Below are positions 7,476-57,114 of a stretch of 64,000 nt of DNA, piece after piece (the first letter of the stretch is position 1; every line of letters starts with the position of its first letter). This stretch comes from Kordiimonas sp. SCSIO 12610 (GTDB taxonomy: Bacteria > Pseudomonadota > Alphaproteobacteria > Sphingomonadales > Kordiimonadaceae), in the NCBI RefSeq assembly GCF_024398015.1, contig NZ_CP073747.1, positions 2,477,001 through 2,541,000 of the forward strand, written 5' to 3'. A model generated the notes under the pieces. The model ran no database searches and was not told the DNA's origin. It saw only the letters and a list, made by a program, of their open reading frames with translations. Made by a program: the position numbers and the translations under genes.

Positions 7476-7718
7476 GGCACACACGTGCCTTTACAACAAT
7501 AAGTCTAAATTAAATTGATACTTATCGTCGTCGAAGCCTTAGGGCTTGGTTGATATGGGCATGCTTTATCACAGCGTCAGTTACACTTTCATGAAATTGA
7601 AGCGGGAACCTAATCAAACTGGTGCTAAAATGCAATAGAATTATACAACATGATTTTACAACCATGAAATTAGCTATATTTTCTCCCTTTCGATACTACT
7701 GATCCAAAAAATGAGTGT

Positions 7719-8978
7719 CTATTCCGCCGCCTGAAATAAATCAAAGGCACATAAGCGAGGAACACAATCCAGATCCAGCTCATATCTGGCTTTCGCAAAC
7801 ACACCTAAAACCTTATCCAAATCCTGTCGATTGAGATCTGCGTTAATTGTAAACCGAACCAGAGCAGCCCCCTCGGCTGTCGCGGGTGGAGCAAAAACTG
7901 AACCAAATATTCCATTGGATGCTAAATAATCACGCAATATAATTGTATCCGGGTTAGAGCCCGCAATAATTGCAATTATTTGGCTATCGCATTCACCAAC
8001 ATCATAACCCAAGCTTAACAAACCATCGCGGAGATACGCATGATTTTCATGAAGCTTCTCTCTGCGCCATGTTTCACTATTGATAATATCAAGCGTCTTC
8101 TCAAAACCTGCAATTTCATAAGCCAAAACAGATGTACTAAAAATCATCGGAAACGCTTCATAACGGAAAAATTCCATATTTCGCTTTGACCCTGCAACTA
8201 CGCCGCCGCGCGCCGCAATAGCCTTCGAAAGCCCAATAGTTCTGAAATGAATTTTATCTTCAATCCCCATTTCAACGGCGATGCCGCCCCCTAAATTTCC
8301 ATGACATCCAAAGGAATGGGTTTCGTCTAGTATAATTGCACAGGCATAGTCCTCCGCGATCTCTACTAATTTTTCCAACGGGCATATCTTTCCATTGGTG
8401 CTATATAATGCGTCGACAACTATTAAACCCGGTCCATATCGTTTTATTTTCCGGTGTAGGTCATCGATGTTATTATGCCTAAACGGCCTTGCCCTTGCGC
8501 GTGCACACGCGATCCCTTCCCATAACGAAGCATGCGCTTTAATATCAATGTAAACATTGGTACCCTGCTTGGCGAAAGCCTGAATAATACCCGTATTTGC
8601 ATTATACCCTGACATACAAAGAACCGCGTCTTCCGCCCCTAGTATAGAGGCCATTCGCTTTTCGAACGACTTATATACGTCTTCCCGGTCATGGGTAAAA
8701 ACGCGTGACATCGCATCGCCGTGGCCCTGTTCTAGCAATATTTCGGCTTTGGCTGCTGCAATCCGTTTATCAGAAGCGATTGAAAGATAATCATTGGATT
8801 GCATTTTAATGGCGGCTTCATCGCCGTCTACCCTGATATCACCCAACACGATATGAGAGTGGTGCTGGTCTTTATCAAGCAGAAAACCTGTATCGACGAT
8901 CTCCTTCACAAATGCTGGATTTTCAGGAGATTTACAATTTCGACTAACATGATTACAATTCGCTTTATGTTGCTGCAT
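7719..8978 (-). CDS. CqsA/LqsA-type alpha-hydroxyketone autoinducer synthase
   Basis: This PLP-dependent alpha-oxoamine synthase most resembles the quorum-sensing synthases CqsA (Vibrio CAI-1) and LqsA (Legionella LAI-1), which join an acyl-CoA to an amino acid or SAM-derived amine to make an alpha-hydroxyketone precursor. Supporting motifs are MQSNDYLSIA, SGYNANTGIIQ, VYIDIKAHASLWEG (close to CqsA and unlike KBL, BioF or HemA), DETHSFGCHG with the PLP aspartate near residue 218, and the Schiff-base lysine in GLSKA near residue 252. The ATG at 8978 has AAGGG six bases upstream; the ATG at 8993 is the alternative. It is divergent from a matching sensor kinase 110 bases away. An ALAS or KBL role is possible but less likely, given that neighbour. 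Confidence 0.88.
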   Translation of the reverse strand: MQQHKANCNHVSRNCKSPENPAFVKEIVDTGFLLDKDQHHSHIVLGDIRVDGDEAAIKMQSNDYLSIASDKRIAAAKAEILLEQGHGDAMSRVFTHDREDVYKSFEKRMASILGAEDAVLCMSGYNANTGIIQAFAKQGTNVYIDIKAHASLWEGIACARARARPFRHNNIDDLHRKIKRYGPGLIVVDALYSTNGKICPLEKLVEIAEDYACAIILDETHSFGCHGNLGGGIAVEMGIEDKIHFRTIGLSKAIAARGGVVAGSKRNMEFFRYEAFPMIFSTSVLAYEIAGFEKTLDIINSETWRREKLHENHAYLRDGLLSLGYDVGECDSQIIAIIAGSNPDTIILRDYLASNGIFGSVFAPPATAEGAALVRFTINADLNRQDLDKVLGVFAKARYELDLDCVPRLCAFDLFQAAE

Positions 8979-9088
8979 TTCGAACCCTTTCATCAGCTGG
9001 CGGTGACTTTCGGAAAGATCAGTATAGTACTAATTTGCTGAAACTAGAATATAGAGTTATCATGTAAGCAGTATTTAGTGAGAAAGAC
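8979..9088. promoter_or_regulatory. Divergent promoter region of the signal synthase and sensor kinase
   Basis: This short AT-rich spacer must drive both the synthase (minus) and the kinase/regulator pair (plus). A palindrome TAGTACTA lies at 9025-9032. A GAGAAAG site directly precedes the kinase ATG. No luxbox-like or other known operator is recognised. Confidence 0.5.
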
Positions 9089-10345
9089 ATGTTTCTAAAA
9101 ACAAATCCTGTTTACGACTTCGAGTATACACAAATAAAAGTCAGGATGCTTTCCCTATTAGGAATAATTGGTTTTCCTCTGTATTATTATATTTGGCAGT
9201 ATATTCTTCCTCAGTCTTATGAAAATTTGCATTTACGGATTATAGGTACAATATTCTGTATAATCTGTTTTCTTGCGAGCTATTCAAAAGACGAAACAAA
9301 CCAAAAGAAATTGAGAATTCTATATTTCTTTTTGTTTACATTTAGTTTGCCGTTTTTCTTCACTTATTTATTCCTTCAAAACAATGCAACCGGGGCATGG
9401 CTTGGGTCATTGATTTGCGCTATTCTGTATCTCGCCCTTATAATGAACTTATCCAACTTCATTATTATGACAATTACGGGCTCAGGATCAGCTATATTAT
9501 TATTCTTACTAACCCCTGACACCTACATTACTCCGTTAAATCTATATGAAGCGATACCAGTCATAATCTTTGCCATTACTGGCGGTCTTGTTATGAAGTT
9601 CGCAGAATTGTGGGCGATAACCTCAAACAGAAAAAAGGCAATTGCGCTGGCAGGGTCAATTGCACATGAGCTTAGAACACCAATGCTTGGCCTAAGGATG
9701 GAAATCGATAACTTTAAAAATATATGCGAAGAAGCTGCGAACGCTGATATCACTGACCTTGATAATGAAGAATATACAGCAATATCCGCGAGGCTTAGTC
9801 GGCATATTTCAAAATCGTCGCTTATCGTCGATAGTTTGCTTCAGAATGTGCGGGAAGAGTCTATCAATGATCAAGCCTTCAACTTATATTCAATGCGTGA
9901 AATTATTATCGATGTTATTGAGCATTTCCCACTAACCGACAGCGAACGAGCTGCCATTCAATTTGACGATACGATTAATTTTAAGTTCTGGGGTGATGAA
10001 CTATTAATGTCTCATGTCGTGATGAATATGATCAAAAATGCACTTCAGGCCATTTCAATTGCCGACAACGGGCAGATATTTATTTCATTAATTCCTGCCG
10101 AGCAAAACCCTGAAAACGCGAAATACCACAGCCTGATTATTCGCGATACCGGCACCGGGATGAAGCGACGCGAACTTGCAAAAATATTCGATCGCTTTTA
10201 CTCCGGCCCCAAAGGGGGTATTGGTCTGGGCCTTGCTTTCTGTGCGCGAGTAATTAATAGTTTTAAGGGAACAATTACTTGTCGTTCTGAACATGGACAA
10301 TACACTGAGTTCACAATTCGACTTCCGAGGAAGGAAATTAGATAA
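9089..10345 (+). CDS. CqsS/LqsS-like membrane sensor histidine kinase
   Basis: This 418-residue kinase has an N-terminal membrane domain of about six helices (residues 20-170) with almost no periplasmic domain, as in CqsS and LqsS. The HisKA motif SIAHELRTPMLGL places the phospho-histidine at H193, close to the position I recall for CqsS (H194). The ATPase domain has an N box (NMIKNALQAI), a G1 box (RDTGTGM), an F box (FDRFYS) and a G2 box (GIGLGLAF). It ends after the ATPase domain and has no fused receiver, so it is of the Legionella rather than the Vibrio type. Its stop overlaps the next start by one base. It is visibly more AT-rich than the flanking genes. Confidence 0.88.
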   Translation: MFLKTNPVYDFEYTQIKVRMLSLLGIIGFPLYYYIWQYILPQSYENLHLRIIGTIFCIICFLASYSKDETNQKKLRILYFFLFTFSLPFFFTYLFLQNNATGAWLGSLICAILYLALIMNLSNFIIMTITGSGSAILLFLLTPDTYITPLNLYEAIPVIIFAITGGLVMKFAELWAITSNRKKAIALAGSIAHELRTPMLGLRMEIDNFKNICEEAANADITDLDNEEYTAISARLSRHISKSSLIVDSLLQNVREESINDQAFNLYSMREIIIDVIEHFPLTDSERAAIQFDDTINFKFWGDELLMSHVVMNMIKNALQAISIADNGQIFISLIPAEQNPENAKYHSLIIRDTGTGMKRRELAKIFDRFYSGPKGGIGLGLAFCARVINSFKGTITCRSEHGQYTEFTIRLPRKEIR

Positions 10346-11391
10346 TGTCATCTCCTTATGATCCTGCAATGCCCTTTTTTCATCCGTGCAGCACGCTCAT
10401 ATTAGATGATGACGAGGACTTTCTAAATTCCATGCGCGCCTTCATGGCACGTCATTGTGCCAGTTTATGCTATTCATCACCCGGGCAAGCAATGCAGAAA
10501 CTGTTTCACACACAAGAAATCACCAGCGAACTGCACGATTTCTTCTCTAAATATGGCTATGGTGTAGACGGTGAAAGCATCGAAACAGGCGACTGTGTTG
10601 TCCTTTTAAAATCATCCAAGTTACGACAATACACACAGTTAGCGGATCGATTTAAAATGATTTCAGTGGTCATTGTTGATTATCAAATGCCGACAATGAC
10701 TGGATTGGAATTTTGCCGAGCTATCGCTGATATCCCTGTCAAAAAAATTCTTCTAACCGGGAAAGCGAACACCGACCAAATCATTGACGCTTTCAATGAA
10801 GGTCTCATTGATCGCTTTATTTCCAAAAGCGACCCTGATGCCCTCATAAAAATCAGACAAATGGTCAAGCAGTTGCATCAGGACTATATTGGAACGGCTA
10901 TTTCACCGTATGCCAAAGCCTTACGGGTTGCACACACACAGGAATTCGAACAGCACGACGTAAGTGTTGTTCTGGATCAGGTTTATGAGCAATTCCCATT
11001 CACTGAATATTATTATCTACCGCAACCCAGAAGCTTCATGCTTTGCAACGGTGATGGCGAAAAAAAACTCTGCCTTTTATCAACGGAAAAAGAATTGATC
11101 GATCTGGCCGAAATTGTTGAAGCATCACTGGGGGAAGGCACAGCAACAAAAACCCTTAGGTCCGGCAGGGCGATAACCTGGGGATTGTTTGATTGGCTAG
11201 ACGGCAACCACAGTTCAAACGAAGCGCCCGAAAATGTATTTTTCCCATGCCATAGCTACCGCGATTGGAAATGGGCACTTTTACCACCTGATATGTTCAC
11301 AGATACCATCGATACAATGTCATCTTCATGGAATGAATATCGTAAAAGCACAATCAAGCTACCATTTAACCTGGCCGGTGATGCTGCGTAA
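10345..11391 (+). CDS. LqsR-like response regulator with unassigned output domain
   Basis: This 348-residue regulator starts within the kinase stop codon (TAATG), so the two are translationally coupled. The receiver begins with LILDDDEDF (residues 18-26) and has an insertion of roughly 40 residues before the phospho-acceptor, D112 in VVIVDYQMPTMTG. LLTGK (T138) and FISKSD (K161) complete the active site. The late aspartate recalls Legionella LqsR. The remaining region (about 185-348) has no helix-turn-helix, GGDEF, EAL or other output domain I can recognise. It contains conserved-looking aromatic stretches such as FTEYYYLPQP and SYRDWKWALLP. The likely partner is the kinase just upstream; how it acts on its target is unknown. 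Confidence 0.85.
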   Translation: MSSPYDPAMPFFHPCSTLILDDDEDFLNSMRAFMARHCASLCYSSPGQAMQKLFHTQEITSELHDFFSKYGYGVDGESIETGDCVVLLKSSKLRQYTQLADRFKMISVVIVDYQMPTMTGLEFCRAIADIPVKKILLTGKANTDQIIDAFNEGLIDRFISKSDPDALIKIRQMVKQLHQDYIGTAISPYAKALRVAHTQEFEQHDVSVVLDQVYEQFPFTEYYYLPQPRSFMLCNGDGEKKLCLLSTEKELIDLAEIVEASLGEGTATKTLRSGRAITWGLFDWLDGNHSSNEAPENVFFPCHSYRDWKWALLPPDMFTDTIDTMSSSWNEYRKSTIKLPFNLAGDAA

Positions 11392-11422
11392 ATAAACACC
11401 ATCACCGATTATATACTATCTA

Positions 11423-23131: not shown

Positions 23132-24037
23132 ATGAAAATAACTCCAATAACTCGAAGAGATTTGTTTGATGTAATGATTGTCGAGCAAGTCAATTGGTCA
23201 GGTTCGCTCGATGAAACCGAATTTTTATCCCGTTTGTATAATTTGAAACAAATACCTTCAACCGATTATAGGTACTCTGATGCTGAAGGAGATATTTTCC
23301 AACATAGGGTCAACAATTCAGATTGGGAAGATCATTGGATATTCAACGATCGTCGATTTGCACTGATGAATGGTGACGATGAAATATTACTAAAGTTCCT
23401 AGCAGAAACTGTTCATCCAGTTGTTAGACCTGATGTAACTTCATCTCAGAAACTTGTAACTATCTACAATAACATTTTAATTAATGATGGTTTTGAAATC
23501 GCTGAAAGAGCCAGAATTTCAGGAAAGCCAATTTACATAGGCAGAAACATCGGGACATCAACGATACCTGCTTTATCGGCAGCAAAAGATACTCTGAGTG
23601 CAACAGATTTGGTTTATGTTACACAGCAAATAACACGAATGGAAGCGGCTGTACATAATGATCCAAGTCTTGCCATCGGAACAGCTAAGGAATTAATCGA
23701 ATCTTGCTGCAAAACAATTCTTCAAGAACGAGAAATAAACCTCGGCAATGGAGACGACCTTCCAAAACTAGTCAAAACAACAGTCAGGGAATTAAAACTG
23801 ACACCTAATGATATTCCAGACGCTACAAAAGCGGCAGATTCAATTAGAAAACTTTTGAGCAACTTGGCTACGGTTGCATACGGAATTGCTGAACTTAGAA
23901 ATAAATATGGTACTGGTCATGGAAAAGCCGGACAAACAAGAGGCCTAACTTCACGTCATGCAAAATTAGCAGTTGGAGCTGCCTCAACTTTATCAGTCTT
24001 CTTGGTTGAAACGCATAGAGACCAGAACAATAACTAA
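23132..24037 (+). CDS. Abortive-infection family protein (Abi C-terminal domain)
   Basis: This 301-residue protein ends in an Abi-C-type domain with the diagnostic LRNKYGTGHGK motif (residues 255-265) and the preceding helix EAAVHNDPSLAIGTAKELIES. The N-terminal half (about 1-110) has no fold I can name with certainty; it may be an AbiJ N-terminal-type domain. The gene is markedly more AT-rich than its neighbours and sits alone between a DsbA-fold isomerase and the metH operon, which suggests horizontal gain of a single-gene phage defence. The role in defence is inferred from the family. Confidence 0.85.
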   Translation: MKITPITRRDLFDVMIVEQVNWSGSLDETEFLSRLYNLKQIPSTDYRYSDAEGDIFQHRVNNSDWEDHWIFNDRRFALMNGDDEILLKFLAETVHPVVRPDVTSSQKLVTIYNNILINDGFEIAERARISGKPIYIGRNIGTSTIPALSAAKDTLSATDLVYVTQQITRMEAAVHNDPSLAIGTAKELIESCCKTILQEREINLGNGDDLPKLVKTTVRELKLTPNDIPDATKAADSIRKLLSNLATVAYGIAELRNKYGTGHGKAGQTRGLTSRHAKLAVGAASTLSVFLVETHRDQNNN

Positions 24038-55589: not shown

Positions 55590-56597
55590 GTGAACCAAGC
55601 CGAAAATATCATCCCGCTTTTTCAAGAAAAACTTCGTGAAATCGATGGTTCCACTCAGTGGGATATTGAAGGGCCAGTGATTAGATCAAGAGAATGCGAT
55701 ATATATAAAGCAACCAATCCAATCTCAAAAATGGAATTGGCACTTAAGCAATACAAATCATCCGCAAATCAAAACGCGGTAAAAGAGCAATTCGACGCCC
55801 TCGTGCTATATCAAGATTCTATGACAGGCGCAGGATGCTTACACCGTGTCCCCAAGGTGTATAGCTGTACACCTAAAAGCAATATAATGGTTATGGAATG
55901 GCTTCACGGACAGGAGCTTCATAGCTATCTGTGGAAAAATTTATGGAACACAGCAGAACTAAAGCGTCTGATTGCGCTCTCAGCAAAGTGGCTTGGTACA
56001 TTTCATCAAAATAGTTCCATTACATCTCAAACCTATGAAACAAATACACTCCTTAAAACCATAGAAAAACGAGTAAATAAATATAACTCCACCGCGCAGA
56101 TTTTATCAAATAACCATTTTCAAAGTGCGTTAGCGACACTCAAACGATACGTAAAGAACACGCCTTCTATATCTACACCAATCACTACCAGTCATAATGA
56201 TTTCACGCCAACCAACATTATTCTGGATGGAAAGCAAGCCTACGGCATTGATATTTGGGCAAAAAAAAACACACCGATATATAATGATATTGCTCGGATA
56301 GCTGTTTACCTAACTGTTGCCTATCCAATTCGAATGAACACGAACATTGTAACAAAGGCATTACAGTCAGGAACTGCCTTACAGATTATGGCGGAAAGTT
56401 ATACGGCGCAAACCAATGTTCAATTGGATCAGAAAATACTGCTACTTTTTATCTACACGGAACTATTGCGGCGCTGGATTGTCATTTCAGATAGGAAGAC
56501 AAGCGGGAAACTTATTCCAACCTTAGTTAAGGTCTACCAATCACAAAGGATTAAATATCAGATCCATCAGCTTAAACGTTATTTTATCGACGCCTAA
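55590..56597 (+). CDS. Phosphotransferase (APH/kinase-like fold)
   Basis: This 335-residue protein has a protein-kinase-like fold. LALKQYKS holds the probable ATP-binding Lys, IMVMEWLHGQELHSYLW is the hinge, SHNDFTPTNIILD is the catalytic loop (D in HND, N in TN), and YGIDIWA contains the DFG-like metal Asp. These fit an aminoglycoside/choline-kinase-type or lipopolysaccharide-kinase-type enzyme; the substrate is unknown. It starts with GTG preceded by GAAGG. Its codon use and A/T content look higher than its neighbours'. Confidence 0.8.
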   Translation: MNQAENIIPLFQEKLREIDGSTQWDIEGPVIRSRECDIYKATNPISKMELALKQYKSSANQNAVKEQFDALVLYQDSMTGAGCLHRVPKVYSCTPKSNIMVMEWLHGQELHSYLWKNLWNTAELKRLIALSAKWLGTFHQNSSITSQTYETNTLLKTIEKRVNKYNSTAQILSNNHFQSALATLKRYVKNTPSISTPITTSHNDFTPTNIILDGKQAYGIDIWAKKNTPIYNDIARIAVYLTVAYPIRMNTNIVTKALQSGTALQIMAESYTAQTNVQLDQKILLLFIYTELLRRWIVISDRKTSGKLIPTLVKVYQSQRIKYQIHQLKRYFIDA

Positions 56598-57114
56598 ACT
56601 CCCGCTTACATGTAAACGATTGTCAAGACTCGTCACCCCCTATTTCCCACGTATAAATAATGTTAATTTACATACGTATTTAGGAATAGAATGACATTAA
56701 AACTGTCACCTTTATGCAACATTTATGACTTTCCACAAATCCCAACAGCTCGAAACCCATCGAGATTGTGAACAATATATAGCTCATACGAAATACCCAC
56801 ATCTATATAAACTCGCGCGGTAATTTAAACCCGATATAAACTGAATATTTATGCTTTTTCCTTCAATAAAGATGATATTCGCTCAAAACCACATTATTAC
56901 TACCTATAATTGCTTTTACAGTACACAAAGCAGATCATAAGATTATATACTCAAAAAATCTTATCATAACGATTTATCACATTTATTTTATTGTTTTCAT
57001 ATAGTTGCTACCGTCTAGCTATTTGACATCCGTATAAGAACGCCTCCTAAGGCGCGCGGAAAATTCTTTTACATAATAAAGAATACTCAACCTTGGGATA
57101 TATTAGGAAAAGAA
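56598..57114. promoter_or_regulatory. AT-rich leader of the TonB receptor gene
   Basis: No gene is seen in these 517 bases, which are notably A/T-rich. Two inverted repeats stand out: ATAAGATT/AATCTTAT at 56937-56964 (12-base loop) and ATTCTTT/AAAGAAT at 57063-57084 (8-base loop), the second only 30 bases before the receptor ATG. A TTGACA hexamer lies at 57023-57028. The region probably holds the receptor promoter and one or more regulator sites; no known motif is matched. Confidence 0.5.

Follow-up and report, generated by a model that had tools for sequence, protein, structure and literature searches.

The three-gene locus at positions 7719-11391 of the window (the whole 64-kb stretch of Kordiimonas sp. 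SCSIO 12610 DNA that was analyzed) very probably encodes a self-contained alpha-hydroxyketone (AHK) quorum-sensing circuit of the Lqs/Jqs type. A synthase, a sensor kinase and an LqsR-type regulator are found together in one cluster, which is what defines an Lqs/Jqs system. The locus is a real but ordinary addition to a described and widely distributed Lqs/Cqs family, and it leaves unchanged the picture of AHK signaling as widespread among environmental bacteria. What makes it interesting is that an Lqs-type circuit, compact and intact, is found in a marine alphaproteobacterium, that it occupies a separate branch and that its insertion site is identified; as such, it lends itself to tests of how signal specificity evolved and of how LqsR output domains act outside pathogens.

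Organization of the locus

The host genome is a single contig of 3.5 Mb. The nearest relative of the host found by search was the uncultured Kordiimonas 81-G; K. gwangyangensis belongs to the same family, which places the host in Kordiimonadaceae. The locus comprises the following features, and all three genes are intact:

7719..8993, minus strand: AHK autoinducer synthase of the CqsA/LqsA/JqsA type (424 aa, PLP lysine K257)
8994..9088, no strand: intergenic region between the divergent synthase and kinase genes (95 bp, must hold both transcription starts)
9089..10345, plus strand: CqsS/LqsS-type sensor histidine kinase (418 aa; six-helix sensor in residues 1-185, H193, HATPase)
10345..11391, plus strand: LqsR/PhcX-family response regulator (348 aa; receiver with an insertion and a C-terminal LqsR-type output domain)

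The first-pass annotation of this DNA had described a synthase divergent from a kinase that is coupled to a regulator, and the coordinates and strands of the open reading frames agreed with this; the stop codon of the kinase and the start codon of the regulator overlap in the sequence TAATG. The CqsA-type motifs that it had reported, VYIDIKAHASLWEG and GLSKA, were both located in the synthase frame. No convincing promoter was found in the 95-bp gap, as promoter-like matches in and around it did not exceed those in shuffled sequence. No RNA family of the Qrr or Rsm type reached the gathering threshold in the window, and a search of viral contigs returned no relatives of the locus proteins.

The synthase

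Against the NCBIfam model for AHK autoinducer synthases (NF005526, curated cut-off 428 bits), the synthase scored 451.5 bits (E 2e-135). Because of this E-value, and because full-length relatives of each of the three genes occur in the same cluster elsewhere, the observation lies far beyond chance. The best solved relative was V. cholerae CqsA (3hqt; E 5e-88, 41% identity). Nine residues of the CqsA acyl pocket have been named (PMC3285556); seven of these are identical in the synthase, compared to one to three of the nine in the SPT, BioF, KBL and ALAS proteins of the same genome. The two that changed are F257 (Y278 here) and C346 (A368). A phylogeny, which had been proposed as a check, was calculated with SPT, BioF, KBL and ALAS as the outgroup. 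The synthase was placed on the AHK side, in a deep position, and was separated from SPT, KBL, BioF and HemA/ALAS with support of 100/100; the grouping with KBL, BioF or HemA that would have counted against the assignment did not arise. On sequence grounds, the assignment of this protein to the AHK autoinducer synthases (CqsA/LqsA/JqsA) holds, and AHK production is predicted from it. The NF005526 cut-off is also exceeded by synthases that have no adjoining CqsS-type kinase, such as one fused to an RND/MMPL exporter. The model is thus broader than quorum sensing, and the case for signaling therefore rests on the neighboring genes as well.

The sensor kinase and the response regulator

The first 185 residues of the kinase matched the sensor domains of Vibrio CqsS proteins in tblastn, mostly with E-values of 1e-9 to 1e-19. 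A six-helix kinase with its phospho-histidine at 193, near the CqsS position, had been claimed. The AlphaFold model does contain six N-terminal helices (7-39, 47-63, 69-97, 102-118, 121-141 and 149 onwards) that run into the dimerization helix, and W104, S107 and H193 align with W104, S107 and H194 of CqsS. The phospho-acceptor H193 lies within AHELRTP. Across 19 aligned kinases, W104, S107 and the phospho-histidine are invariant; in CqsS, W104 and S107 recognize the C3 group of the ligand (PMC3376566). HATPase_c was matched with an E-value of 1e-19, and the HisKA match was weak and under its own cut-off. Homology of the sensor domain to that of CqsS holds, judged by these alignments, and signal binding is predicted from the conserved receptor motif. 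Assignment to the Vibrio CqsS subtype, a hybrid kinase with a C-terminal receiver, was rejected: the protein ends after the HATPase domain at 418 aa and has no fused receiver, whereas the Vibrionaceae members have 675-699 aa. The position of CqsS C170, the residue that sets tail length, is occupied by Met in this kinase and was uninformative for chain length.

A profile built from the regulator and four relatives matched 6sy9 (E 4e-44). When the model of the regulator was submitted to Foldseek, the best match in the PDB was the same entry, titled L. pneumophila LqsR (E 5.6e-20, TM 0.67/0.75, full length). Residues D21, D22, D112 (the phospho-aspartate), T138 and K161 were invariant in 19 relatives. 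The earlier remark that the aspartate sits late, as in LqsR, was correct: D112 is late because of a long insertion in the receiver, which separates D112 from the acidic pair D21/D22 and was modeled poorly around residues 69-84. No DNA-binding domain was recognized in the output domain by Pfam or NCBIfam. A diguanylate cyclase output was discarded, as PleD appeared among the fold matches only weakly (TM about 0.3); LqsR itself showed no diguanylate cyclase activity (PMC10653808). The classification of the regulator as LqsR type holds by both sequence and fold, and its phosphorylation by the neighboring kinase is predicted from the catalytic residues.

Proposed circuit

The small substrate of CqsA is S-adenosylmethionine or aminobutyrate. 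By analogy with that enzyme, the synthase would join an acyl-CoA of medium or long chain length to a small substrate derived from an amino acid, and the product would be an alpha-hydroxyketone or its enamine precursor. This hydrophobic product is expected to exit the cell and to bind the kinase at its six-helix membrane domain, where the receptor motif is conserved; binding would shift the balance of autophosphorylation at H193. Because the kinase has no fused receiver and is coupled to a partner regulator, the phosphate would pass directly from H193 to D112 of the co-transcribed regulator, with no LuxU/LuxO relay. The phosphorylated regulator would work through its LqsR-type output domain and, since this has no recognized DNA-binding part, control of the target genes would probably be indirect.

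Distribution and phylogeny

Of 399 Pseudomonadota genomes, 16 carry the synthase and 13 an LqsR-type regulator; the two co-occur in 10 (Fisher p 9e-14, without correction for relatedness), in most of which they adjoin each other and a CqsS/LqsS-type kinase. The synthase was found in 8 of the 385 sampled Alphaproteobacteria genomes and in 3 of the 30 genomes of the host family. The trees of all three proteins contained one and the same five-taxon clade, made up of the window, Kordiimonas 81-G, K. gwangyangensis and two metagenome-assembled genomes (MAGs; L047, Rhodospirillales, and L048, Hyphomicrobiales). Support for this clade was 99/98 for the synthase and 100 (SH-aLRT) for the kinase and the regulator. 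Because the same clade was obtained from all three trees, the genes have stayed together. The other four taxa of the clade hold the closest relatives of all three locus proteins. The layouts in Kordiimonas 81-G (L045) and K. gwangyangensis (L046) are the same as that in the window, whereas L047 and L048 have the regulator on the far side of the synthase, in convergent orientation to it.

Comparison with known systems

Comparison with LqsR was made via 6sy9, and the Legionella, Janthinobacterium and Cupriavidus clusters were compared from their descriptions in the literature. In jqsA-jqsS-jqsR of Janthinobacterium sp. HH01, the synthase adjoins a separate kinase and its own response regulator (PMC3566124). 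The locus resembles this published description in having a CqsA/LqsA-type synthase beside a separate kinase with its own response regulator next to it; it differs in that Jqs is betaproteobacterial and has a known output, violacein. The first-pass annotation had considered the arrangement different from those of both Vibrio and Legionella; given the Jqs cluster, a claim that it is unusual is not supported. Moreover, cluster layouts vary, and the divergent layout of the window recurs in an unrelated genome (G586).

The L. pneumophila Lqs cluster has the order lqsA-lqsR-hdeD-lqsS (PMC3376566, PMC5289986). The three components are the same, the regulator matches 6sy9 over its length, and the kinase likewise has no fused receiver. 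In the Kordiimonas locus, however, no hdeD lies between the genes, the kinase and regulator genes overlap in one operon, the synthase is divergent, and no second kinase (LqsT) was identified. The likeness to Vibrio CqsA/CqsS lies in the 41% identity of the synthases and in the homologous six-helix sensors with W104 and S107, but CqsS there is a hybrid kinase that feeds LuxU/LuxO, whereas a separate LqsR-type regulator is present here. This regulator also places the locus with the PhcX/LqsR family, orthologs of which are reported in 16 alphaproteobacterial genomes, with lqs clusters in Alpha-, Beta- and Gammaproteobacteria (PMC10653808); PhcX has moved out of the lqs cluster, whereas the Kordiimonas regulator is still inside. 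An alphaproteobacterial synthase (R. vannielii) is also listed in PMC3566124. The premise that CqsA/CqsS is confined to Vibrio and Lqs to Legionella thus had to be abandoned.

Identity of the signal

The most serious alternative, though a doubtful one, accepts an Lqs-like circuit and supposes that the synthase makes, and the kinase senses, a related long-chain compound (amino-ketone or hydroxyketone) unlike CAI-1 or LAI-1. It is favored by the synthase tree, where the five-taxon clade is deep, long-stemmed and outside the clade of Vibrio and beta-/gammaproteobacterial members, and by the differences at the F257 and C346 positions of the pocket and at the C170 position of the receptor. Signals do differ within the family, given that jqsA failed to complement V. 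cholerae cqsA mutants (PMC3566124). Most of the pocket residues and the head-group positions W104 and S107 are nonetheless kept, and the residue differences may merely tune chain length. As the deep alphaproteobacterial branch recurs in all three proteins, the signal may differ. It is tentatively suggested that this branch (Kordiimonadaceae and two MAG lineages) may have its own AHK dialect, with a tail or head group absent from Vibrio and Legionella and a co-evolved receptor. No study of the chemistry of this branch was found, and a search of the literature on Kordiimonas and quorum sensing gave no paper with either term in its title.

Origin of the cassette

The kinase gene was correctly described earlier as AT-rich (GC 0.387), but the hint of transfer drawn from this did not stand. 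Its GC3 (0.385) is ordinary compared to that of the ORFs in the 64-kb window (0.433 +/- 0.061), and its content of Phe, Tyr, Met, Ile, Asn and Lys (0.37) is the highest among the 52 window ORFs; the low GC is thus due to amino-acid composition. Transfer itself is supported by an empty site: genes for a GNAT protein and an M28 peptidase, which flank the cassette in the window and in genome G001, are separated by 190-270 bp in nine relatives of the family that lack the cassette. In K. gwangyangensis, the cassette sits elsewhere in the genome. The three genes probably arrived together, perhaps on more than one occasion within the family; the alternative of repeated loss is less likely.

The patchy occurrence in the family (3 of 30 genomes) and the insertion between two genes that nine relatives have next to each other would also fit a recent, possibly decaying acquisition that forms no working circuit. 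This is very unlikely: two species have all three genes intact, GC3 is ordinary, and identity between the window and the second species is higher for the synthase (84%) and the regulator (82%) than for several flanking genes (CCA, 49%; M28, 59%; Nudix, 72%).

Least credible of all is a metabolic alpha-oxoamine synthase (SPT, BioF, KBL or ALAS) or lipid-modifying enzyme beside an unrelated two-component pair: the protein shares one superfamily with these enzymes and cross-matches the bioF (260 bits) and SPT (225 bits) models, but it falls far under the curated cut-offs for bioF, serine palmitoyltransferase, KBL and ALAS while exceeding that for AHK synthases, a search of its own genome returned precisely SPT, BioF, KBL and ALAS as the four other superfamily members, so that none of these functions is vacant for it to fill, and the tree separation, the pocket residues and the conserved neighbors with a CqsS-like sensor also weigh against it. 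The reading as an Lqs/Jqs-type signaling circuit is preferred.

Other observations

The GNAT-M28 interval (window 7485-11422; L192-L195) is a variable slot, being longer and holding other genes in G009, G011, G013 and G022. Elsewhere in the window, positions 23132-24034 hold an AbiJ-like abortive-infection gene (AbiJ_NTD3 and Abi_C) whose GC3 (0.272) is the lowest among the window ORFs; it was likely acquired. Positions 56595-57114 are AT-rich, contain no ORF of at least 150 aa and lie inside the kilobase with the lowest GC in the window (0.351).

Two AHK-synthase-like proteins are encoded in tandem at L127 (G338:C86, 7524-12514), where no CqsS-type kinase is found. The second (1191 aa) is a fusion of an RND/MMPL-type exporter and a synthase domain, in which a synthase is possibly joined to its own exporter, and another RND pump adjoins. 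A similarly long, fusion-sized ORF lies beside a CqsS-like kinase at L052 (5553-9137). At five further loci (L062, L087, L091, L092 and L094), all in MAGs labeled Rickettsiales, Rickettsia, Proteobacteria or Alphaproteobacteria (labels taken as given), an AHK synthase is followed directly by a CqsS-like kinase of hybrid size.

G272, a 1.3-Mb alphaproteobacterial genome, has two kinase-regulator pairs, and no synthase was found in it. At L187 (G272:C5, 6140-9864), a 908-aa protein combines an N-terminus that by eye resembles a sodium-solute symporter with a CqsS/LqsS-type kinase, and its gene overlaps that of an LqsR-type regulator; the second pair is located at L188 (7708-9880). These pairs possibly belong to an eavesdropper.
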